From assembly GCF_017569925.1 (NCBI RefSeq), contig NZ_CP050854.1, positions 62,001-126,000 on the forward strand: 64,000 nt of DNA, written 5' to 3'. Position numbers and translations under genes: made by a program. The notes below the pieces were generated by a model. The model saw only the letters and a program-made list of their open reading frames with translations, did not search any database and was not told where the DNA came from. Below are positions 6,506 to 56,666 of the stretch, piece by piece (within the stretch, counting starts at the first letter, position 1; each line of letters starts with the position of its first letter). Source of the stretch: Brenneria izadpanahii. Its GTDB lineage: Bacteria; Pseudomonadota; Gammaproteobacteria; Enterobacterales; Enterobacteriaceae.

Positions 6506-8117
<1,612 letters not shown>

Positions 8118-8174
8118 ACCAAACATCGTTGCGAGCAAGAAGGTAACTTCACTCCACCCATGAGGAAATCTGTT

Positions 8175-9464
8175 ATGAATAGCGAAGCGTTATCCACAAC
8201 GAAAAATAAAATTGATATTACCGATCTGCGGATTGACGGCGATCGTCTATGGCAATCGCTGATGGATTTGGCGGTGATTGGCGCTACGCCGAAAGGCGGC
8301 GTATGCCGGCTGACGCTGACTGACCTGGATCGTCAGGGACGCGATCTGGTGGTTAGTTGGGGGAAGGCCGCCGGGTTATCGGTTGAGATCGACAAAATCG
8401 GCAACGTATTTATGTGCCGCCCCGGCCGTAATAATGACCTGCCGCCGATCGTGGCGGGCAGCCACATCGATACCCAGCCGACCGGCGGCAAGTTCGACGG
8501 TAACTTCGGCGTACTGTCGGCGTTGGAAGTGATCCGCACGCTGAACGACAACCACATCGAAACCGAAGCGCCGGTGGAAATGGTGTTCTGGACCAATGAA
8601 GAAGGGTCGCGCTTTGTGCCGGTGATGATGGGCTCCGGGGTGTTTGCCGGCATCTTCCCGATAGAACTCGCCTATGCCGCGCAGGACGTGGACGGTAAAA
8701 CGGTGAAGGATGAGCTGGAGAAAATCGGCTATGCCGGGCCGAAAACGCCGGGCGATCATCCGATTGGCGCCTATTTTGAAGCGCATATCGAGCAAGGGCC
8801 GATTCTGGAAGATAAGAACATCGAAATCGGCGTGGTGCAGGCCGTATTGGGCATTCGCTGGTATGACTGCGTCGTCACCGGCATGGAGTCTCACGCCGGG
8901 CCGACGCCGATGGCGCTGCGTAAAGATGCGCTGCAGGTTTCCACCCGCATCATGCAGGAGGTGATTGCGATCGCCGACCGCTTTGCGCCGCACGGCCGCG
9001 GTACGGTAGGCATGGTGCAGGTGCACCCCAACAGCCGCAACGTGGTGTCGGGCAGCGTGAAGTTTTCTATCGATTTCCGTAATCTTACCGATGCGCTGGT
9101 GGATGAGATGGATGCGGCGCTGAAAACCTATCTCGCCGAACTGGGCGCGGAAACCGGGCTGGATATTCAGTTGACGCAGGTTTCCCAATATCCCGCCGCG
9201 CCGTTCCATGCGGACTGTAAGGATGCGGTGCGCCGGGCGGCCAATGCGCTGGGTTATTCGAACATGGATATCGTTTCCGGCGCCGGACACGACGCCGTTT
9301 ATGTGGCGGATCTGGCGCCGACCGGGATGATTTTTATCCCGTGTAAAGACGGCATCAGCCATAACGAAATCGAGTATTCCTCGCCCGAACAGGTGACGGC
9401 CGGCGCGAACGTGTTGCTGCATGCGGTGATGGAAACCGCCGGCGTCGTGGGGCGGGGGGCGTAA
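8175..9464 (+). CDS. Zn-dependent N-carbamoyl-amino-acid hydrolase (beta-ureidopropionase type)
   Basis: 429 residues of the M20 allantoate amidohydrolase/beta-ureidopropionase/HyuC family. It would release ammonia, CO2 and beta-alanine (or beta-aminoisobutyrate) from the HydA product, the third pathway step. Two-metal ligands are visible: His97 in AGSHIDTQPTGGKFDG, Asp108, the Glu pair in WTNEEGSRF near 143, His in FEAHIEQGPILE near 200 and His in ISHNEIEYSSPEQ near 400. Start: the ATG at 8175 has GAGGAA seven bases upstream, better than the in-frame ATG at 8160. It is last in the operon, 57 bp after hydA. Preference for beta- over alpha-carbamoyl substrates is inferred from context. Confidence 0.87.
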   Translation: MNSEALSTTKNKIDITDLRIDGDRLWQSLMDLAVIGATPKGGVCRLTLTDLDRQGRDLVVSWGKAAGLSVEIDKIGNVFMCRPGRNNDLPPIVAGSHIDTQPTGGKFDGNFGVLSALEVIRTLNDNHIETEAPVEMVFWTNEEGSRFVPVMMGSGVFAGIFPIELAYAAQDVDGKTVKDELEKIGYAGPKTPGDHPIGAYFEAHIEQGPILEDKNIEIGVVQAVLGIRWYDCVVTGMESHAGPTPMALRKDALQVSTRIMQEVIAIADRFAPHGRGTVGMVQVHPNSRNVVSGSVKFSIDFRNLTDALVDEMDAALKTYLAELGAETGLDIQLTQVSQYPAAPFHADCKDAVRRAANALGYSNMDIVSGAGHDAVYVADLAPTGMIFIPCKDGISHNEIEYSSPEQVTAGANVLLHAVMETAGVVGRGA

Positions 9465-9579
9465 TTTCCGTCACGGGGCCGGGCGCGTTGCGGCATTATC
9501 GTATGGAAATCGGGCCGCTTTGGGATGAATGCCGATCCTGGCGCGATCGGCATTTGCGGGCGCCCGGCGCGCCGGACGT

Positions 9580-10230
9580 TTAAGGCATGGCGTTGAGGCG
9601 GCTCAGCCCGTACGCAATCACGAACATGGCGACGGCCACAACGAAGTCCAGCCCGCGAACCATGAGCGGATTAGCGAAAAAGCGCGAAACGCGGTAGGCC
9701 GCGTACCCTGTGGCGTAAAACCAGATATATGAGGCGGCGCTGGCGCCGATAATAAAACTGAGTCTGGTTTCCTCAGACTGGCGGGAGCCGATGTTGCCGA
9801 GAATAAAAAACGTGTCGAGATAAACGTGCGGGTTTAGCAGCGAAAACGCCAGCGCCGGGATCGCGACGCTGCGCTGTTTCAGATAGCGGGCTTTCTCTGA
9901 CTGGCTGACATCGGATAAGACGGCTTCCCAACCTTTGGGGTGCTTGGAGAAAGCATTCATCAGAGAGAGCAGCCCGTAATAAAGCAAAAACAATACGCCA
10001 ATCCATTTTGCGATGACCACCAAACCGGGCACCACCGTCATCAGCGCCGACATGGAGAAGGTTCCCAGGATAATGAGCGCGCAGTCACAGCTTGCCGCGA
10101 TAGTCGCGGCAAGAAAAACGTTTTTATTTTGCAGGCCCGTTTTAATGATGTAGATATTTTGCGCGCCGATCGCAACAATCAAACTGAGTCCGAGCATAAA
10201 GGCTCTGGCGGTATGCAATAGGTCTATCAC
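9580..10230 (-). CDS. LysE/ArgO-type amino acid exporter
   Basis: 216-residue inner-membrane protein with about six hydrophobic segments and the family-defining first helix (FMLGLSLIVAIGAQNIYIIK, with Gly-Ala-Gln-Asn) and FSLLNPHVYLDT in the middle. LysE/ArgO proteins export lysine, arginine and the toxic analogue canavanine. The start is GTG, directly after the stop of the upstream B3/4 gene, with GGAAGG close by, so it is the last gene of the operon 14259-9580. An ArgP-like regulator, the classic partner of this exporter family, lies at the other end. The likely cargo is the product of the argG/formyltransferase/argH paralogues; this is inference. Confidence 0.85.
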   Translation of the reverse strand: MIDLLHTARAFMLGLSLIVAIGAQNIYIIKTGLQNKNVFLAATIAASCDCALIILGTFSMSALMTVVPGLVVIAKWIGVLFLLYYGLLSLMNAFSKHPKGWEAVLSDVSQSEKARYLKQRSVAIPALAFSLLNPHVYLDTFFILGNIGSRQSEETRLSFIIGASAASYIWFYATGYAAYRVSRFFANPLMVRGLDFVVAVAMFVIAYGLSRLNAMP

Positions 10231-10962
10231 TTAACCTTCCTTGGCCGATATCGTATAGACGGTGAACTCACCGCCGCAGTTTCTGACAATGCGCCGGCAC
10301 AGAGCGTTAAGCGCATGAATACGGTATGCGGCGGATGTCGCCGCGTTTCCCTGAACAACGATGAGAACGTTTTTCGTGGCGGGCGACACTTTCGCCAGAT
10401 CGCTGTCTCTTGAATCAAGCCAGGCCAGCACCTTCTCGGCGTCGGCGTAGACGTAATCCGCTTTCGCCGTCGCCTTGTTTCCGCCGCCTATCGGGATAAA
10501 CGCCTCTCCCCCAGGGGAGAAGCGAAAACAGATATCGCCTTTGATCATATCCATATCATGTACGCCGAAAGACAGGTAGTGCTCCAGCGCGGCGAGGTTG
10601 TAGATGTCGACCAGCGTATTGATATGGTGAAACCGTCCTTTCCGTTTGACGATACCGATCAACGCCTCCGCGCTGGGGGGGAATTTTTTATTACTCCTTC
10701 CCCGCTGGTGAATCATCTCCCGGTAGCTTTGCAGAATCGAGTTATCCCGGATGGCCTCATCCGGGGTGTTGCAGATTCTGCGCGCCGCGGCTTCGCAACT
10801 CTGCGCGATATCGGGAAGCAGGGGTTGCGTGTTGTCGATGTTATACAGTTCGGCCGCCGCCACCTCGTCGACGCCGATGGCGCCGAATGTAGAGGGAAGG
10901 TGGATATTGCAGCGGCGACCGCCGGATAAGATTTTTTTAGATGTCGGCATATTTTCGAGCAT
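10231..10962 (-). CDS. standalone B3/4-domain protein (PheRS-beta editing-domain type)
   Basis: 243 residues, no signal peptide. The central part, residues about 95-185 (FPPSAEALIGIVKRKG, HHINTLVDIYNLAALEHY, HDMDMIKGDI, SPGGEAFIPIGGG), is a clear B3/4 domain, the tRNA-editing domain of bacterial phenylalanyl-tRNA synthetase beta chains. Freestanding members are known to deacylate wrongly charged tRNA, including canavanyl-tRNA(Arg) (CtdA). The ATG at 10962 lies inside the end of the argH paralogue (26-base overlap), and the exporter gene follows without a gap. In this operon a plausible job is removing an arginine mimic from tRNA, giving self-protection. An alternative is uncharacterised housekeeping editing, but the tight coupling argues for the pathway role. 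Confidence 0.75.
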   Translation of the reverse strand: MLENMPTSKKILSGGRRCNIHLPSTFGAIGVDEVAAAELYNIDNTQPLLPDIAQSCEAAARRICNTPDEAIRDNSILQSYREMIHQRGRSNKKFPPSAEALIGIVKRKGRFHHINTLVDIYNLAALEHYLSFGVHDMDMIKGDICFRFSPGGEAFIPIGGGNKATAKADYVYADAEKVLAWLDSRDSDLAKVSPATKNVLIVVQGNAATSAAYRIHALNALCRRIVRNCGGEFTVYTISAKEG

Positions 10963-12421
10963 GGTTCAACGTATCCTGTTCGGCTTGTTTGATTCGTTTC
11001 TCCGTTTTCTCCAGCGCCTGTTCATGGGCGATAAGTTCGGAGCGAAACTGGTCGACCATTTGGCGCACGTTGTCAGGCCCGGTTGAACCGTCGCTGCGCT
11101 GCCGCCTGATGACATGCGAGGGGGAGACGTATTCAAGCATTTCTTGTTCATCAACCAGAATGCCCTGCGTTTCAAAGAAACGGCGGACCATTTCCGTGTT
11201 ACGCAGATCGGTGCGGGCGTTTATCAGCGCTTTGGTCAGCATACCGGTAATCCGATGGGCCTCGCGGAAAGGGAAGCCTTTTTGACTGACGAGAAAGTTC
11301 GCCAGTTCGGTGACGGTCGAAAAGTTTTGCCAGCACAATTCTTCCGCTCTGTCCGAGTGATAAACACAGTTTTCAACGTGGTGGTGAAGGATGCTGGTGG
11401 TTTCTTTAATCGCATCGATAGCTCCCCACATCATGGGTTTATCTTCCTGAAGATCGCAGTTGTAGCCGAGCGTGACCCCTTTAACCATGGTCAGTAGTTG
11501 CATCAAGGTGCCGTATACGCGGCCGACTTTGCCTTTCACCAGCTCGGCGACCACCGGGTTTTTTTTCTGTGGCATGATGGAACTGCCGGTCGCGAATGAA
11601 TCATCCACGCTAAGTAAACGGAATTCGTTGCTGCTCCAGATGACGATCTCTTCCGCCAGACGGGAGTAGTTGCCCATCAGCAGGGCGAATGCCGAGGCTG
11701 ACTGAAGAATGAAATCACGGCTGCTGGTGGCATCAAGGCTATGCAGAAGAGGGCGGTTGAAGCCGAGCATTGCCGTCGTCATATGGCGATCGATCGGAAA
11801 TGACGTGCCGGATAACGCGCAGGCGCCGAGCGGGTTTAAGTTCGTGACGTTCAGCGCCTGGTTTAGCCGCTCCAGATCGCGTAAAAACATGCTGGCATAG
11901 CAGCTATACCAGAACCCCAGGCTGATAGGCTGCGCCGGCTGGAGATGGGTATATCCCAGCGCGGATTGGTCGGCGTTTTTTTCCGACAGATCGAGCAGCG
12001 AGGAGACAAACGCGCACAGTGTTTTCTGCAACTGCAACAGTTCCGAACGCAAATACATACGGGTATCCAGAACAACCTGGTCGTTGCGCGAACGGGCGCT
12101 GTGCATCTGACCGCCGTATTCCAGCCCTATTTTTTGTATGACCAACTGCTCGATATTTAAATGAACGTCTTCATATTCTGGATTTAATTTCAACTCGCCG
12201 CGCTGGTGCTGTTCATATAAACCCAACAGCGCGCCAAGGATTTTGCCTGCGGTTTCCGCGGTGACGATCCGGCATTCCTTCAGCATTGAAACATGCGCCA
12301 TGCTGCCGAGGATGTCGAAAGGCAGCAGCCGTTCGTCAATCACCGTGGTATAGGTGTATTGCAGCACTTCGCCAGTAATATCTTTACTAAAACAGCCGCC
12401 CCAAAGTTTCTCGCTCATCAT
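10937..12421 (-). CDS. argininosuccinate lyase paralogue (specialised pathway)
   Basis: 494 residues, about 30 longer than a typical ArgH. The lyase-superfamily signatures are intact: HSARSRNDQ at 107-115, the Thr-His pair in GYTHLQPAQ (158-159), and the mobile catalytic loop GSSIMPQKKNP at 279-289 with its serine. It should eliminate fumarate from an N-succinylated amidine or guanidine. It starts in an ATGATGA overlap with the formyltransferase stop, with AGGAG five bases upstream, so translation is coupled. It sits between formyltransferase and B3/4 genes rather than with argCB. No ARG box was seen before the operon. The true substrate is probably not ordinary argininosuccinate; that is inference from context. 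Confidence 0.82.
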   Translation of the reverse strand: MMSEKLWGGCFSKDITGEVLQYTYTTVIDERLLPFDILGSMAHVSMLKECRIVTAETAGKILGALLGLYEQHQRGELKLNPEYEDVHLNIEQLVIQKIGLEYGGQMHSARSRNDQVVLDTRMYLRSELLQLQKTLCAFVSSLLDLSEKNADQSALGYTHLQPAQPISLGFWYSCYASMFLRDLERLNQALNVTNLNPLGACALSGTSFPIDRHMTTAMLGFNRPLLHSLDATSSRDFILQSASAFALLMGNYSRLAEEIVIWSSNEFRLLSVDDSFATGSSIMPQKKNPVVAELVKGKVGRVYGTLMQLLTMVKGVTLGYNCDLQEDKPMMWGAIDAIKETTSILHHHVENCVYHSDRAEELCWQNFSTVTELANFLVSQKGFPFREAHRITGMLTKALINARTDLRNTEMVRRFFETQGILVDEQEMLEYVSPSHVIRRQRSDGSTGPDNVRQMVDQFRSELIAHEQALEKTEKRIKQAEQDTLNHARKYADI

Positions 12422-13014
12422 TTTTCTCCTGTTTTGACGTGCTCCGCCGGCTTGCGGGACCGCGAGAGGTAACTCTTGAGTTTTTTATCGGTAAATAGCC
12501 GATCGCCCCAGCCTATCGGCGCGCGGGGAAGCGGTTCGTCATGATAGATTTTTATACAAATATCATAGAGTAACGTCAGGGAATGCACGGCGGTGCGGTA
12601 GCGCAGCATCTCAGGGGTTTCCGTCGGGGAGAGACGAAATTCCGCGGTTTGGATGATCTGCCCGTGATCGATGTATTTATCCATGTAATGACAGGTTGCG
12701 CCAAAGCAGGCGTCATGATTGTCAATCGCATAATGATACCCGCCGAGCCCGCGGTACTTGGGCGAGGAGGGGTGGAAATTGATGGCGCCTTTGCCGGCAT
12801 GGCTCAGGACGTGTTCCGGCAGTATCAGATCGGATTTGAAAGAGATAATCCAGTCGCCCCGCCAGGTAGACACCTCCGGTCTTTTTTCCATACCGCTTTC
12901 CCAAAATACATGGGTAACCCGGCTAAAAAGCGAAGAAATAAATTCGCAGGCGGCCTCTGACCAGAAAGAGCAATCACCGATAAAAAGTACGTCGCAGCTT
13001 TTCTTTTTGTCCAT
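12418..13014 (-). CDS. small formyltransferase-family protein
   Basis: 198-residue single-domain protein of the GART/Fmt formyltransferase fold. The catalytic triad is recognisable: Asn79 and His81 in INFHPSSPKYRGLGGYHYA and Asp116 in MDKYIDHGQII. It lacks the C-terminal anticodon-like domain of methionyl-tRNA formyltransferase and is close in size to phosphoribosylglycinamide formyltransferase. Small members formylate sugar or amino-acid amines with 10-formyl-tetrahydrofolate. The gene lies between the argG and argH paralogues, nine bases after the former and overlapping the latter. I infer that it formylates the side-chain amine of a diamino acid such as ornithine, supplying the carbon that the ArgG/ArgH pair turns into an amidine. 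Confidence 0.75.
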   Translation of the reverse strand: MDKKKSCDVLFIGDCSFWSEAACEFISSLFSRVTHVFWESGMEKRPEVSTWRGDWIISFKSDLILPEHVLSHAGKGAINFHPSSPKYRGLGGYHYAIDNHDACFGATCHYMDKYIDHGQIIQTAEFRLSPTETPEMLRYRTAVHSLTLLYDICIKIYHDEPLPRAPIGWGDRLFTDKKLKSYLSRSRKPAEHVKTGEK

Positions 13015-13023
13015 GTTGATCTT

Positions 13024-14259
13024 CTATTCCTTAATCTGTCCGGCCAGTGCGCTGATCCGGGTATTCAACGTCAAAATATTCAGTAACCCCTCTGAATCCC
13101 GGTGGTCGAAGCTGCCTTCGTCTTCCATTGAGCCGTCTTTGCTGTACAGGCTATGTTTGACATCGCGGGTAGAAACGTAAGACAAATTGCCTTTATAGAG
13201 GGTGAAGGTGACTTCGCCGCTGATCAGCGCCGTGACTTGCCGCATTGCCGTGCGTGCCATGCGGGAGCCCAGATCGATCCAGTAGCCCTGATAGAGTTGC
13301 GTGCCGAGATAGTCGGCGGTGTTGCGGTAAAAGGTTAGCGCGCGCTTATCAAGAACCTGCTGTAACAGTTGCTGATAGGCGTAGGCGAGAATCGTCATCG
13401 CCGGGGCTTCGTACACGCCGCGCGATTTCACGCCGACGAAGCGGTTCTCCACCAGATTTTCGGCGATGCCGACGCCGTGCATGCCGCCGATGGTGTTGAG
13501 TATTTCGAAAAGATTCACCAGAGACAGGGCTTGACCGTTCAATTTTACCGGCCTGCCCTCCAGGAAGGTCAGACTCAGTTCCTCCGGCTGCGAGACGGCG
13601 TCGTACGGCCAATTGCCTAATCCCGGCTCCACGAATTCCATACGGCTCTCAAGACTCTCCAACGCGCCGCCCTCGTGGGTCAAACCGAGCAGATTGGCGT
13701 CGGTGGAGTAGGGTTTGTCCGCCGTGGCTTTGATAGGGATTTCATGACGTTGACAGTAGTCGATCATTTCCCGCCGTCCTTTGAAGGTCTGGAGGAAAGC
13801 GGCGTCACGCCAGGCGGCGTAGAACTGCATGGTTGGGTCAAGCATGGAGGCGATGACCTGGAATCGCACCTGATCGTTGCCGCGGCCTGTGGCGCCGTGA
13901 CTGAAGATGGTAATGTTGCGTTCCTTGAGCTGCGGCAACAGCCCTTTAATGATCACCTGCCGTCCGGCGCCGGTGAGATTCCAGTAATTTCCTTCGTATT
14001 TCGCGCCGGTTTGGATAACTTCCAGACCTATTTCCGCCATTGGCCGCCTGAGGTCGACGGCGATGAACTCCTTCGCGCCGGACGCCAGCATCCTTTCTCC
14101 GATTTGGCCGAAATCATCCTCGTCCGGTTGTCCCAAATCCGCCGTTAGGCACACGACGTTTACCCCCTGACTGGCGAGCCAATGCGTGATCGTACAGCTA
14201 TCCAGACCGCCGGAAGCGGCAAACGCCACCGTTTTACCCTTAAGTTCATTTATGTTCAT
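13024..14259 (-). CDS. argininosuccinate synthase paralogue (specialised pathway)
   Basis: 411 residues with the ATP-pyrophosphatase loop SGGLDS at 16-21, [13 protein letters not shown] near 37-49, SHGATGRGNDQVRF near 119, the substrate-loop motif KPYSTDANLLGLTHEGGALE and VENRFVGVKSRGVYEAPA. The chemistry, ATP activation of a carbonyl followed by aspartate attack, is therefore likely intact. It differs from the 447-residue argG at 55323 in length and motifs (SGGLDSC versus SGGLDTS) and in lacking the double ARG box. It is first gene of the operon 14259-9580 and divergent from an ArgP-like regulator. AGGTG lies seven bases before the ATG. Substrate possibly a formylated or ureido amino acid other than citrulline. 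Confidence 0.85.
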   Translation of the reverse strand: MNINELKGKTVAFAASGGLDSCTITHWLASQGVNVVCLTADLGQPDEDDFGQIGERMLASGAKEFIAVDLRRPMAEIGLEVIQTGAKYEGNYWNLTGAGRQVIIKGLLPQLKERNITIFSHGATGRGNDQVRFQVIASMLDPTMQFYAAWRDAAFLQTFKGRREMIDYCQRHEIPIKATADKPYSTDANLLGLTHEGGALESLESRMEFVEPGLGNWPYDAVSQPEELSLTFLEGRPVKLNGQALSLVNLFEILNTIGGMHGVGIAENLVENRFVGVKSRGVYEAPAMTILAYAYQQLLQQVLDKRALTFYRNTADYLGTQLYQGYWIDLGSRMARTAMRQVTALISGEVTFTLYKGNLSYVSTRDVKHSLYSKDGSMEDEGSFDHRDSEGLLNILTLNTRISALAGQIKE

Positions 14260-14404
14260 GCTTTCACCTAATCTCCATATGATGTTGAGTCATTAACTGA
14301 ACTTGTTTTTTTGACGCGATTGCTAATCTATAAAATATTTATTATTCAAAGATTTATTTATTTACTGGTTATCCTAAAGGCCGAAATTTGAAAGAGATTA
14401 ATGA

Positions 14405-14425
14405 ACTTGTGTTACACGAACAAGT
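14405..14425. promoter_or_regulatory. candidate ArgP-like operator (inverted repeat ACTTGT-N9-ACAAGT)
   Basis: A 21-bp interrupted palindrome lies in the AT-rich 218-bp gap between the divergent argG paralogue and the LysR-type gene, 53 bp before the latter. Its left part GAACTTGT recurs at 14299-14306, nearer the operon start. An inverted repeat plus an extra half-site is the usual layout of LysR-type binding regions. No ARG box comparable to that of argG is present. Confidence 0.45.
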
Positions 14426-14477
14426 CTGTTAAGAAACATTACGGTATGTTTAATTTTTCTTAAGCTAAAGGGCGCTT

Positions 14478-15383
14478 GTGAAGATAGACGTTCGTAAAAC
14501 GGAAGCTTTAATGGCGGTGATTGAAACCGGCGGCTTTGAACTCGCGGCGAAGAGGCTCAACCTGACTACCTCGGCGATATCGCAGCGTATTAAAGCGTTG
14601 GAAAGCGCGATCGGCGCGCCGTTGGTGATTCGCGGCAAGCCTTGCGTCTCCACGGAGGAAGGGGCGAAGCTGATTCAATATCTGCGCAGGCAGAAATTCC
14701 TTTACGATGAATTTGAATCCGAGCTTTTTGGCACGGAGAATACCAAGGTCAAAATGCGCATCGCCATTAATCAGGATTCGCTGGACACCTGGTTTTTGCC
14801 CGCGGTTCAGCCCGTTGTGCTCAAGAAAAATATTTTACTGGATATCGTCGTAGACGATCAGGACTATACGCTGAGAGCGCTGGCGGAAGGCAACGTGGTT
14901 GCGGCCATCTCTTCCATTGCAAAGCCGATGCGCGGCTGCAGCGTGGTGCCGCTCGGCTCGATCCGTTATCGTCTTCTGTGCAGCCCCGATTTCCATCAAC
15001 GCTGGTTTGCAAACGGCGTTACCCGCGACGCGTTGCAGCAGGCGCCGCTGCTCATTTTCGGTAATAAAGACAAACTACAGTCGGATTTTCTAAATCGGGT
15101 GTTTTCCGTTAATCAGGAAGCGTGCCGTTACCACTGCGTGCCCTCGACCGAGGCGTTTTATATCGCCGTACGGCGCGGTATCGGCTACGGCATGATTTCG
15201 GAGTTGCAGTATGCCGACAATCTGGCGACGGGGGCGCTGGTGGATATCTCGCCGGGGTTTTACAGCGATATCGAACTGTATTGGCACCATTGGCAGGCGC
15301 AATCCCCCAGCATTAACTGGCTCACCCGCTGCCTGACGGCGGAAGCCTGCCGATTTCTGGCGCGATCCCCCGTTACCAGTTGA
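14478..15383 (+). CDS. ArgP/LysG-like LysR family regulator
   Basis: 301 residues; GTG start with AAAGGG five bases upstream. The N-terminal winged helix-turn-helix (TEALMAVIETGGFELAAKRL, AISQRIKALESAIGAPLV) and the whole effector domain follow E. coli ArgP: AINQDSLDTWFLPA, then a stretch around HCVPSTEAFYIAVRRGIGYG, and LVDISPGFYSDIELYWHHW. ArgP and LysG activate ArgO/LysE exporter genes in response to arginine, lysine or canavanine. Here the gene is divergent from a five-gene operon ending in a LysE-type exporter. It is most likely the sensor of that pathway's product or of basic amino acids. Not the housekeeping argP by context, which normally lies elsewhere. Confidence 0.87.
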   Translation: MKIDVRKTEALMAVIETGGFELAAKRLNLTTSAISQRIKALESAIGAPLVIRGKPCVSTEEGAKLIQYLRRQKFLYDEFESELFGTENTKVKMRIAINQDSLDTWFLPAVQPVVLKKNILLDIVVDDQDYTLRALAEGNVVAAISSIAKPMRGCSVVPLGSIRYRLLCSPDFHQRWFANGVTRDALQQAPLLIFGNKDKLQSDFLNRVFSVNQEACRYHCVPSTEAFYIAVRRGIGYGMISELQYADNLATGALVDISPGFYSDIELYWHHWQAQSPSINWLTRCLTAEACRFLARSPVTS

Positions 15384-15443
15384 CCGCCGGCAGCCGATGT
15401 CCAGCGCGGATTTTTGACCTGCGCGCGAACGGCGCGGCGGGCG

Positions 15444-16700
15444 CTACAGCCCGCTTTCCTGTAACGCCTTGGTGACTTCTTGCGCCAGAATATCGATGCC
15501 GCGCTCAAGGCTTTGCGGATCCGGCACGTAGTTCATGCGTAGGCACTGATGCGCGTGCGGCCACTCCTGTTCCAGACCGGGGAAGAAATAGTGGCCCGGC
15601 ACCATCAACACTCCGCGTTTTTTCAGCCGCTGATACAGCACTTCGGTGGTGATGGGGAGATCCTTAAACCATAACCACAGGAAAATCGCTCCCTCCGGCT
15701 TGTGGATAAGGCACTGTTCCTCCGACAGGTAGCGGCGGATCAGCGCGATGGTATCTGTGACCCGCTGCTGGTAGAAGGGGCGGATCACGTCATTGGACAG
15801 CCGCAGCAGATCGCCGCGCCGGATCATCTCATGCGCTATCGCCGGCCCCACCGCGCCCGGCGACAGGCTGATGATGCCGTTCATGTTGCCGACCGCGGAA
15901 ATGACCTTTTCATCGGCAATAACAATGCCGCAGCGCGAGCCGGGGAGCCCCAGCTTGGACAGGCTCATGCACAGAATGATATTGGGGTTCCACAACGGCG
16001 TGGCTTCGCTAAAGATAATACCGGGGAAGGGAACGCCGTAAGCATTATCAATCAGCAACGGCACATTGTGCTGTTGCGCCAGAATGTCCAGCCGCATCAA
16101 TTCTTCGTCGGTCAGTACGTTGCCGGTCGGGTTGGTCGGCCGGGACGCGCAAATCAGTCCGATATCATCGGTGATCGACAGGTGATCAAAGTCGACATGG
16201 TATTTGAATTGTCCTTCGGGCAGCAGTTCAATCTGCGGCCGAACGGACACAAACATGTTTTCATCCAGCCCCGAATCTTCGTAGCCTATATATTCCGGCG
16301 CCAGAGGAAACAACACCTTACGCTTGCTGCCATTGGCGTAGCGCCCGGCAAACAGGTTGAATAAGTAGAAAAACGCGCTCTGACTGCCATTTGTCAGTGC
16401 AATATTCTGTGGTCCAATTTGCCAGCCTAATTCATCGCGCAGCAGATCGGCCAGCGCGTTAAGCAGCGCGTTTTTTCCCAGAGGGCCATCGTAATTGCAT
16501 AAGGCTTCAGTTAATTTTCCCTGTTCCAGCATTTCCTGACAGAGTTGTTGAAAATAGGTATCCATCGCGGGAATGTGCGCCGGATTACCGCCTCCCAACA
16601 TGATTGCTCCCGGTGTGCGGAGCCCCTCGTTCATGTCATCCATTAGCTGCGTGATGCCTGCATGACGGGTGAATTTGTTGCCGAAAAGAGAGAAGTTCAT
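15444..16700 (-). CDS. avtA: valine--pyruvate aminotransferase
   Basis: 418 residues, near-identical in length to E. coli AvtA (417) and matching it throughout (NFSLFGNKFTRHAGIT, PGAIMLGGGNPAHIP, NGSQSAFFYLFNLFAGR). A PLP-dependent class I/II transaminase that interconverts valine/alanine with the keto acids. The PLP lysine is in LCMSLSKLGLPGSRCG near residue 250; the substrate-binding Arg is near the end in CLRMNYVPDP. The start ATG at 16700 aligns with the known protein; the longer in-frame extension to 16766 is not needed. It runs opposite to the ArgP-like gene and ends 60 bp from it, so it is probably a separate unit. Confidence 0.95.
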   Translation of the reverse strand: MNFSLFGNKFTRHAGITQLMDDMNEGLRTPGAIMLGGGNPAHIPAMDTYFQQLCQEMLEQGKLTEALCNYDGPLGKNALLNALADLLRDELGWQIGPQNIALTNGSQSAFFYLFNLFAGRYANGSKRKVLFPLAPEYIGYEDSGLDENMFVSVRPQIELLPEGQFKYHVDFDHLSITDDIGLICASRPTNPTGNVLTDEELMRLDILAQQHNVPLLIDNAYGVPFPGIIFSEATPLWNPNIILCMSLSKLGLPGSRCGIVIADEKVISAVGNMNGIISLSPGAVGPAIAHEMIRRGDLLRLSNDVIRPFYQQRVTDTIALIRRYLSEEQCLIHKPEGAIFLWLWFKDLPITTEVLYQRLKKRGVLMVPGHYFFPGLEQEWPHAHQCLRMNYVPDPQSLERGIDILAQEVTKALQESGL

Positions 16701-17031
16701 AGTTTGTCGATTACTGGTCATACATAAATAGACGGCCACCATAGCGCTTGCGTTACCATGACGCAATGTGGCGAGAAATCAAACCAGCAAGGTATTGTCC
16801 TGCATTAATATAATTTTGCGGAACAACCTGCTAAAGAAGCAGTATACCCTATCCGGCATGATTGGCCGCGTTATCGTTATATCCTCATGCTGAAATTGAC
16901 CGCAATCGTGCTGAATCGATGTCAGCAATAACCGATCTGCAAGCCATTATTTTGCAAAAAACATTAATATTTTTAACGTTATTGTGATCTGTGTGGAAAA
17001 TATTTAGTGGAAAAAGTCTATTTCCGGGACT

Positions 17032-17047
17032 GGTGATTTGTATCACA
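17032..17047. promoter_or_regulatory. candidate CRP site upstream of the DUF4432 gene
   Basis: GGTGATTTGTATCACA matches the CRP consensus TGTGA-N6-TCACA at nine of ten core positions. It lies 72 bp before the start of the DUF4432 gene, a suitable place for catabolite activation. The rest of the 419-bp gap between avtA and this gene is AT-rich with no ORF recognised. Confidence 0.5.
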
Positions 17048-17119
17048 TTCTAAAGCGTTGCTGATTTGTAGCCTTGAATACGCATTAGCTAAATCAATTC
17101 AGCAAAAAGGAAGAATGAA

Positions 17120-18328
17120 ATGAAAAAATTACTGGCTATCGGTGTTTCATTAGCCTTGATTTCCTGGCAATCATCCGCGCAGACGTTTGTGCTGACGGAC
17201 GCTGAAAGCAGCGTGGAGAAAGGGAATTGGCAAATTAGCAGCGATGCGATGAAGATTAAGGATCAGCACTTCAGCATTGAACAAAGCGTACTGCACGGCG
17301 GGCGTCAGGAAGGCAGCAAAATCATTACTATCACCAGTCAAAACGGATTAAAAATCGTACTGAGTCCGAGCCGCGGCATGGATCTGCTGCACGTCACCGG
17401 TAAAGATATCCGTTTGGGCTGGCATTCGCCGGTCGATGAGGTCGTAAACCCGAATACCATCAACCTGGAAAGCCGCGGAGGAGTGGGCTGGCTGGAAGGT
17501 TTCAATGAAATGATGGTGCGCTGCGGCTACGAATGGACCGGCCACCCGGTGGTGGATAACGGCATGATTTATACCCTGCACGGTCGCGCCGGCAATACGC
17601 CCGCGTCGAAGGTGGTGGTCGACGTCAGCGAAAAAGCCCCCTATCAGATTACCGTGCGCGGTCTGCTGAAAGAGAACAGCTTCAAAAAATCGAACCTGGA
17701 AACCTGGACGGAGCTGCGCTACATCCCCGGCAGCGAATCGTTCACCGTTCATGACGTGTTGACCAATAAATCCGATTATGTACGCGATTATCAGATCATT
17801 TATCACAGCAACTTCAGCACGCCGATTCTGGAACAGGGCGCGCGCTTTGTCGCGCCGGTGAAAGAGATCTCTCCGTTTAACGATTACGCTAAAGCGGGCC
17901 TGAAAGAGTGGCAGACTTACCAGGGGCCGACAAAAGACTTTGATGAAATGGTCTTTAACCTGACGCCATATGCCGATGCGCAGGGCAAAACGCTGGCCGC
18001 GTTGTTCAATCGCGCGGGCGATAAAGGGGTATCGATCGAGTTTGATACTCGCCAACTGCCGGTGTTGACGCTGTGGAAAAATACCGATACTGAAAAACAG
18101 GGATACGTTACCGGTATTGAACCGGGCACCAGCTACGCCTATCCGGTGACCATCGAGCGCGAGCAAGGCCGGGTAAAACAGCTACAGCCTGGGCAGAGCA
18201 CGGCGTTTGAACTGACCTATAGTCTGCTGAGCAGCGCCGATTCGGTGCAGAAAACGGAACAACGGGTGAAAGCGATTCAGGGAGAGAATCAAACCACGCT
18301 GACGGAAAAACCTATCGCGGTTGAATAA
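17120..18328 (+). CDS. secreted DUF4432 protein (aldose-1-epimerase-like fold)
   Basis: 402 residues. A clear signal peptide (MKKLLAIGVSLALISWQSSA, cleavage after AQ near residue 21) sends it to the periplasm. The body is the DUF4432 beta-sandwich related to galactose mutarotase: SPSRGMDLLHVTGKDIRLGW, then a region around GGVGWLEGFNEMMVRCGYEW and LHGRAGNTPASKV, and a conserved YHSNFSTPILEQGA. The family is thought to bind or epimerise sugars. AAGGAAG precedes the ATG; a CRP-like site lies upstream and a terminator directly downstream, so it is monocistronic. Most DUF4432 proteins are cytosolic, so export is notable. Substrate unknown. Confidence 0.8.
   Translation: MKKLLAIGVSLALISWQSSAQTFVLTDAESSVEKGNWQISSDAMKIKDQHFSIEQSVLHGGRQEGSKIITITSQNGLKIVLSPSRGMDLLHVTGKDIRLGWHSPVDEVVNPNTINLESRGGVGWLEGFNEMMVRCGYEWTGHPVVDNGMIYTLHGRAGNTPASKVVVDVSEKAPYQITVRGLLKENSFKKSNLETWTELRYIPGSESFTVHDVLTNKSDYVRDYQIIYHSNFSTPILEQGARFVAPVKEISPFNDYAKAGLKEWQTYQGPTKDFDEMVFNLTPYADAQGKTLAALFNRAGDKGVSIEFDTRQLPVLTLWKNTDTEKQGYVTGIEPGTSYAYPVTIEREQGRVKQLQPGQSTAFELTYSLLSSADSVQKTEQRVKAIQGENQTTLTEKPIAVE

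Positions 18329-55265: not shown

Positions 55266-56666
<1,401 letters not shown>

Follow-up and report, generated by a model that had tools for sequence, protein, structure and literature searches.

A compact six-gene unit lies in a 64,000-nucleotide stretch (C1:62001-126000, hereafter the window) of the 5.33-Mb genome of Brenneria izadpanahii (G000). Five genes form one operon, encoding an ArgG paralogue, a small N-formyltransferase, an ArgH paralogue, a stand-alone B3/4 protein and a LysE-family exporter, and a gene for an ArgP-type LysR regulator diverges from it (Table 1). Our best explanation is a mobile antimetabolite (or signal) unit that would make a formamidine amino acid, likeliest N5-formimidoyl-ornithine, a mimic of arginine. 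We give this explanation as a whole, with horizontal mobility of the unit as part of it, about an even chance. It draws on gene content, recurrence of the formyltransferase-argG-argH trio in other genomes, common descent of the ArgHs found in such trios, an empty site in related genomes and predicted folds; the chemistry, substrate and effect proposed below are read from the genes.

Re-reading of the window's open reading frames reproduced the six genes, their strands, their order and all four spacings given in an earlier note on this DNA: 9 bp between argG and the formyltransferase gene, a 4-base overlap from there to argH, a 26-base overlap from argH to the B3/4 gene and 0 bp to the LysE gene. 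Pfam and NCBIfam returned the families that had been named (Arginosuc_synth, Formyl_trans_N, Lyase_1/ASL_C2, B3_4, LysE and HTH_1/LysR_substrate), and the housekeeping argG that had been placed elsewhere in the window is there. Over residues 8-373 the operon argG matches it at 37% identity. Another argH, at G000:C1:231556-232920 and assumed to be the housekeeping copy, shares 34% identity with the operon argH. The formyltransferase is 96% identical to Brenneria goodwinii protein P0001, and the B3/4 protein is 94% identical to B. goodwinii protein P0062 (protein search, best 120 of 409 matches). These matches place the host near B. goodwinii within the genus.

Table 1. Features of the six-gene unit and its context, in window coordinates
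Feature	Position	Strand	Basis
argG paralogue, 411 amino acids	13024-14259	-	Arginosuc_synth family; PDB homologues; intact HGATGRGNDQVRF motif; cassette lineage I in ArgG tree
Small N-formyltransferase, 198 amino acids	12418-13014	-	Formyl_trans_N; model pLDDT 92.6
argH paralogue, 494 amino acids	10937-12421	-	Lyase_1/ASL_C2; cassette ArgH clade 98/93
Stand-alone B3/4 protein, 243 amino acids	10231-10962	-	B3_4 family; predicted fold closest to CtdA 9f7e
LysE-family exporter, 216 amino acids, GTG start	9580-10230	-	LysE family
ArgP/LysG-type LysR regulator, divergent from operon	14478-15383	+	HTH_1/LysR_substrate and three ArgP/LysG models
Inverted repeat CTTGT-N9-ACAAG, candidate LysR operator	14406-14424	.	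Divergent promoter region; only copy in window
Inverted repeat AAACAT-N6-ATGTTT, candidate LysR site	14434-14451	.	Upstream of LysR gene; identical in three Brenneria loci
Housekeeping argG, context outside the unit	55323-56666	+	PRK05370 908.6 bits, cut-off 657

An alignment of the formyltransferase family (A1, the window protein and 27 of the 61 relatives found) supplied two conserved peptide patterns with which 84,980 species genomes were scanned; 23 loci were confirmed, and their neighbours were sought by tblastn with the window proteins. The co-occurrence that the earlier note had proposed to look for, and whose absence it would have taken as refuting its reading, is present: argG- and argH-like genes adjoin the formyltransferase gene in 15 loci besides the window itself, argG only in one and neither in seven. 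The 15 loci, here called cassettes, come from two Brenneria, four Xenorhabdus, Salinicola, two Nostoc, a Propionibacteriaceae genome, four Rhodococcus and Catenulispora, and span Pseudomonadota, Cyanobacteria and Actinomycetota. An ArgP-like LysR gene was found in 12 of them and, by the same tblastn search, not in the two Nostoc and the Catenulispora cassettes. Genes matching the window's LysE are in seven; further LysE-family genes are annotated on pFiD188 of Rhodococcus fascians and were found by Pfam in L030 and L026, in a check that did not take in L027-L029. All ten genomes that hold both argG and argH in the cassette, among 12 compared, have a further argG-like and a further argH-like gene elsewhere.

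At E <= 1e-28 the formyltransferase is present in 4/9 genomes of the Brenneria genus sample, 4/30 in the genus of Xenorhabdus anantnagensis, 2/149 in the family sample (G000 and G057), at least 1/394 in the order sample (G000 itself) and at least 6/243 in the Nostoc order, namely the centre genome and five members at 35-38% identity. These five show no argG or argH in loci (L070-L074) of 2.4-3.5 kb, too short to rule out more distant copies. At E <= 1e-24 it is present in at least 2/397 genomes of the R. fascians order (the centre genome and G340). For the R. fascians order, 394-genome order and Nostoc order samples, only part of each genome's candidates was scored. The open-licence PMC literature, a scope that leaves subscription papers outside, yielded, among the matches listed, no title or abstract on the trio, and no paper matched formimidoyl-ornithine in six spellings.

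Other arrangements were seen at some of these loci. An ornithine/aspartate carbamoyltransferase-family gene adjoins the cassette of X. anantnagensis (L011, 13106-14119). In Kushneria aurantia (L023, 10001-11820) the cassette looks decayed, with the formyltransferase gene present, argG in pieces and no argH. In four alphaproteobacterial bins (L015, L019, L021 and L022, ~9261-10660) a co-directional reading frame of ~225-230 amino acids, with a start that looks helix-turn-helix-like by eye, precedes the formyltransferase gene.

The ArgH proteins tie the cassettes together. A tree was made of 10 cassette ArgHs (from the 15 cassettes and the window, leaving out L010, L012, L014, L027, L028 and L029 as near-copies) and 16 other ArgH-like proteins. 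All cassette rows lie on one side of a branch with support 98/93, found in all 200 bootstrap trees, and the operon argH is not in the housekeeping ArgH clade of these 26 rows. By this tree the cassette ArgHs share common descent. Sites were then compared between the 10 cassette rows and 12 housekeeping rows, four other paralogues being left out. At 12 sites the residue fixed in housekeeping ArgH is never seen in cassette ArgH, and five of these are also fixed among cassettes (S25T, D290V, A319G, E329P and F332W); we take S25 to match the serine with which animal ArgH binds argininosuccinate. The loop Y-x-[KR]-D-x-Q-E-D-K-E, which presumably carries further binding residues, has cysteine in place of its basic residue in 10/10 cassette ArgHs, and SRND, YTH and GSSIMPQKKNP are kept in all 10. 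Since the fixed changes lie near the substrate site and the catalytic signatures are kept, the clade looks specialised rather than a set of spare copies. Two more distant argH paralogues are also in the Brenneria genome, off the cassette clade (L003 and L004, G000:C1:141678-142940 and 4349825-4351285).

The cassette ArgGs have a different history. They form two lineages, and the best tree that forces them together is 68.6 log units worse (approximately unbiased test, p 1.3e-22). Lineage I holds the window, Brenneria alni, two Xenorhabdus and Salinicola; the other holds two Nostoc, Rhodococcus, Catenulispora, Propionibacteriaceae and a truncated Kushneria row, and lies beside the housekeeping ArgG of Nostoc and Rhodococcus. 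With ArgG in two lineages and ArgH in one clade, the trees indicate one or more replacements of ArgG in cassettes that kept their ArgH and formyltransferase; because the replacement was another ArgG, the step has probably remained ArgG-like. Cassette ArgGs have the T/N/D/R motif and the S, T, E and Y residues, which we take to bind aspartate and the citrulline backbone, respectively. Just past the citrulline tyrosine, both lineages depart from housekeeping ArgG in a short loop, each in its own way. The kept citrulline- and aspartate-site motifs favour a citrulline-length substrate, and the cassette ArgGs fit enzymes that would act on one, citrulline itself being also possible.

In the formyltransferase, N79 and H81 are invariant across A1 and D116 is nearly so; presumably these are the usual active-site Asn, His and Asp of N-formyltransferases. 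The predicted structure, with a predicted local distance difference test score (pLDDT) of 92.6, has the N-formyltransferase fold and matches sugar enzymes best, with ArnA and methionyl-tRNA formyltransferase close behind.

The stand-alone B3/4 protein gave strong matches in 5/19 genome entries, or four distinct genomes (G155 and G157 look the same). The closest relative found outside Brenneria is the gene beside the trio in the Nostoc cassette genome G163 (44% identity, E 4e-54), and the pairing of trio and B3/4 is common to two phyla (Brenneria and Nostoc). Among the best 120 of 409 matches of a protein search, close relatives were only from Brenneria and the next were at 30-34%; this search omitted the 44% Nostoc protein and so misses relatives, and closer ones are possible. 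The Xenorhabdus, Salinicola and Rhodococcus genomes searched gave no B3/4 match, bar one weak match in an 801-amino-acid frame. Weak matches in G057 (E 3e-11) and Catenulispora (6e-9) are outside the cassette, and other matches near 1e-3 sit in frames of ~800 amino acids, the size of PheRS beta. The structure model (pLDDT 87.6) is closest to the CtdA structures 9f7e (template modelling scores 0.78/0.81) and 9mkl, ahead of PheRS. CtdA is also the best PDB match by profile and shares the stand-alone B3/4 fold, but identity over the structure match is 16-18%, CtdA has GGEN where the Brenneria protein has GVHD, and the unit has no adjoining canavanine-degradation genes by families found. GVHD is common to the Brenneria and Nostoc B3/4 proteins, the corresponding residues being GG[FYQ]D or GADD in the 11 other relatives aligned. 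According to PMC10018355, the substrate of CtdA is canavanyl-tRNA(Arg), which it deacylates while leaving arginyl- and homoarginyl-tRNA intact. We propose that the B3/4 protein may likewise strip the operon's product from tRNA(Arg) that has been mischarged with it.

The exporter had been called LysE/ArgO; it is LysE/ArgO-like, although it falls under the NCBIfam cut-offs for both ArgO (119.8 bits, cut-off 298) and LysE (153.3, cut-off 213.65). The regulator passes three ArgP/LysG models (scores/cut-offs 358.8/297, 353.7/197 and 350.4/273.55 bits). Both inverted repeats of the divergent promoter region are seen in B. alni (L009) and Brenneria sp. L010, CTTGT-N9-ACAAG with one arm base changed and AAACAT-N6-ATGTTT shared with the window. 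Promoter and terminator scans returned 4 sites against 4.3 expected and 13 against 7.9 expected (standard deviation 3.2), respectively. Riboswitch control, another point of difference from CtdA, was rejected since no Rfam family matched in the window at gathering score, which leaves no guanidine riboswitch link.

The whole unit, with its regulator, seems to come and go in one piece. In the window it is flanked by avtA and an M20 hydrolase gene (the M20/dihydropyrimidinase side). Five genomes of the Brenneria genus sample have no cassette, and the avtA locus was read in four of them, G154 being left out. In all four, avtA and the M20 gene are adjacent, with gaps of 5, 326, 125 and 90 bases by match ends, and this empty site is the ground for suggesting gain or loss of the whole. 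The flank order in B. alni is as in the window, avtA giving only a short match there; Brenneria sp. L010 matches the window on the avtA side, but its locus showed no M20 gene opposite.

ArgG and ArgH together swap a carbonyl oxygen for NH taken from aspartate, and purine synthesis likewise turns a formamide into a formamidine. Nitrile synthetase supports the view that an ArgG-like protein can work on amide-like groups. Basic amino acids are what LysE exporters and ArgP-type regulators deal with. On this background, the formyltransferase would move a formyl group from formyl-tetrahydrofolate to the side-chain amine of a primary amino acid, likeliest the delta-amine of L-ornithine. The ArgG paralogue would then use ATP to adenylate the formamide oxygen and couple aspartate, just as ArgG acts at the citrulline ureido oxygen, and the ArgH paralogue would release fumarate to leave the formamidine N5-formimidoyl-ornithine, which is arginine with the terminal NH2 replaced by H. 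The LysE protein would export this product, the B3/4 protein, where present, would hydrolyse tRNA(Arg) mischarged with it, and the LysR protein would sense the product, or arginine or lysine, and control the divergent operon. Ornithine is the most likely, though not the sole possible, substrate, and a CtdA-like editor would be most useful against an arginine look-alike. The earlier suggestion of an arginine-like amidine amino acid with its own export, editing and sensing is thus retained as the best-supported reading, with the B3/4 part optional among cassettes. Canavanine as the direct product was set aside, no canaline/O-ureidohomoserine family gene lying beside the operon.

The earlier note knew of no described pathway of this composition, but the att locus of R. 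fascians begins in much the same way. The att locus was reportedly described by Maes et al. in 2001, with an autoregulatory compound as its product. On pFiD188 the order is LysR 'ArgP', LysE, argH, argG, formyltransferase, enoyl-CoA hydratase, asparagine-synthase-like, TauD, adenylate-forming enzyme and argJ. The two systems thus share an ArgP-type LysR gene, a LysE-family exporter, argH, argG and the formyltransferase in one cluster, and the att ArgH belongs to the cassette clade. Unlike the Brenneria unit, att adds the crotonase, asparagine-synthase-like, TauD, AMP-ligase and argJ genes and has an ArgG from the second lineage; the two R. fascians genomes searched gave no B3/4 match. The passages on att in PMC4092121 and PMC7261884 do not name the argG/argH/formyltransferase trio as a unit; PMC7261884 places complete att loci also in strains inferred to be non-pathogenic.

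The trio is found inside larger clusters elsewhere. Nostoc sp. NMS7 has a 2399-amino-acid ligase/peptide-synthetase protein that ends in an in-frame formyltransferase domain; argH, argG, B3/4 and another peptide synthetase come next. In Catenulispora the trio comes after AMP-binding, acyl-CoA dehydrogenase, adenylation-carrier and thioesterase genes. From its place in these two clusters the trio is, on sequence, a module in its behaviour. Adenylation codes, extracted by hand, read D-V-W-E-I-C-C-I-S and D-V-W-H-V-C-L-I-D for the first and second Nostoc domains and D-P-W-F-V-S-M-I-D for Catenulispora. The ligase/non-ribosomal peptide synthetase cluster of Nostoc G163 (contig C32, L064/L063) also has a 1421-amino-acid reading frame that by eye is polyketide synthase-like. 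A broader view, tentative and somewhat short of an even chance, is that formyltransferase, ArgG and ArgH make up a portable 'formamidine cassette', converting an amino group to an amidine much as purine synthesis does, which in its minimal form would give free N5-formimidoyl-ornithine as an antimetabolite with tRNA-editing immunity and in larger clusters would feed the Nostoc peptide synthetase product and the att compound.

A second parallel is the cluster for formylaminooxyvinylglycine (FVG; gvg genes) of Pseudomonas and Pantoea, which by PMC8067088 likewise combines a formyltransferase with a LysE exporter for a small toxic amino acid. In the synthesis scheme given there, GvgI is postulated to formylate aminooxyvinylglycine, at the aminooxy group of a free amino acid. 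The Brenneria operon differs in having no carbamoyltransferase, heme-oxygenase-like or aminotransferase genes, and the gvg gene table of PMC8067088 differs in having no argG or argH; no gvgA, gvgC, gvgF or gvgH homologues are among the families found at 6663-18328 of the window. The enterobacterial genome G057 has a family member 37% identical to the window protein, flanked by a LysE gene on one side and the remnant of a class-III aminotransferase gene on the other, and divergent from a GntR/MocR gene. Set against the gene table of PMC8067088, this locus, a functional lead for the formyltransferase, looks like gvgR, gvgH, gvgI and gvgJ of the FVG cluster. It has the appearance of a decayed FVG-type cluster (L067, G057:C1:2966000-2983000, 7563-11570). 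Photobacterium sp. GJ3 and G340 also have the formyltransferase plus a LysE-like gene.

Several observations weigh against the proposed arginine mimic. No gene fixes the substrate, and the product is inferred from the genes alone. Most cassettes have no B3/4 gene, which was found in two of the 15 (L010 and L017) and in the window; the second Nostoc genome (G164) gave no match, its contig ending ~200 bases after argG, and in B. alni the gene is reduced to remnant pieces of 24 bases (inside the argH end), 79 and 30 bases in a 245-base gap before LysE. The formyltransferase family also occurs apart from argG and argH, in the seven loci L015, L019-L022, L024 and L025 of alphaproteobacteria, Smithella, a deltaproteobacterium and Cytophagales. 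Its tree has no cassette clade, such a clade not being rejected (p 0.26; of three ArnA outgroup loci, the one without a match was not included). No housekeeping-fixed ArgG site is substituted in both cassette lineages, and the site could still take citrulline. D290V is not confined to cassette ArgH, since, of the distant non-cassette paralogues in the Brenneria genome, one carries V at that site and a second carries F. The Nostoc and Catenulispora adenylation codes do not clearly indicate an arginine-like residue. Finally, the att product is discussed as a signal in passages of PMC4092121 and PMC7261884, and pFiD188 with a non-functional att still confers pathogenicity according to work cited in PMC7261884.

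The last of these points bears on an alternative that concerns role only and is compatible with the favoured chemistry, so that the chances of the two overlap: instead of an antimetabolite, the product may be a signal or an autoregulator tied to virulence. The R. fascians att locus, said to be the source of an autoregulatory compound, shares regulator, exporter and trio with the unit, but it has five genes that the unit does not, and a toxic amino acid would better suit the stand-alone tRNA-editing-type gene that Brenneria and one Nostoc carry next to the operon; we regard the signal role as unlikely, while taking it seriously. A little less probable still is the same chemistry on another chain, with lysine or 2,4-diaminobutyrate formylated to give a formamidine of another length. 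The exporter and regulator families handle lysine besides arginine, but the kept ArgG motifs that we take to bind citrulline and aspartate favour citrulline length, and att carries argJ, an ornithine-forming gene. Editing would also need re-tuning, since CtdA does not edit homoarginyl-tRNA in the account of PMC10018355.

Much the same low probability is given to the view that ArgG and ArgH still make a guanidino amino acid (arginine or a close relative) and that the formyltransferase modifies this amino acid or a partner molecule, so that an N-formyl or otherwise modified arginine, or simply arginine, is exported. The ArgG binding motifs are conserved, operon argG and argH match TIGR00032 and TIGR00838 above cut-off, and both proteins share family and catalytic signatures with the housekeeping enzymes. 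They differ from these in the separate ArgH clade, the two separate ArgG lineages and the fixed ArgH changes near the substrate site; the same genomes have further argG and argH copies, and a B3/4 editor would be of no use if the product were arginine itself. Far less probable is that ArgG works as a dehydrating synthetase on the formamide, giving an isocyanide or, after rearrangement, a cyclic amidine, with the role of ArgH changed. Nitrile synthetase chemistry has an ArgG-like enzyme acting on an amide-like group, but the kept aspartate-site motif of ArgG and catalytic signature of ArgH point to ordinary aspartate addition and fumarate release. In a PDB search the operon ArgG is also far nearer to true ArgG (255.9 bits) than to the nitrile synthetase 9lei/9leh (48.6 bits). 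Such ArgG-like nitrile synthetases exist, and the parts of PMC13060819 that describe them mention no ArgH partner.

The Brenneria unit is best described as a variant amino-acid antimetabolite cluster, whose trio links it to the old att locus. The host is tree-associated, and the trio also sits in unrelated bacteria, including a plant-disease locus. If the proposal of a formamidine amino acid is true, the unit would be an amidine amino acid biosynthesis built wholly from re-used primary-metabolism enzymes and an unusual case of producer self-protection through tRNA editing, and it would predict an ArgG/ArgH-made amidine in part of the att product of plant-associated Rhodococcus.

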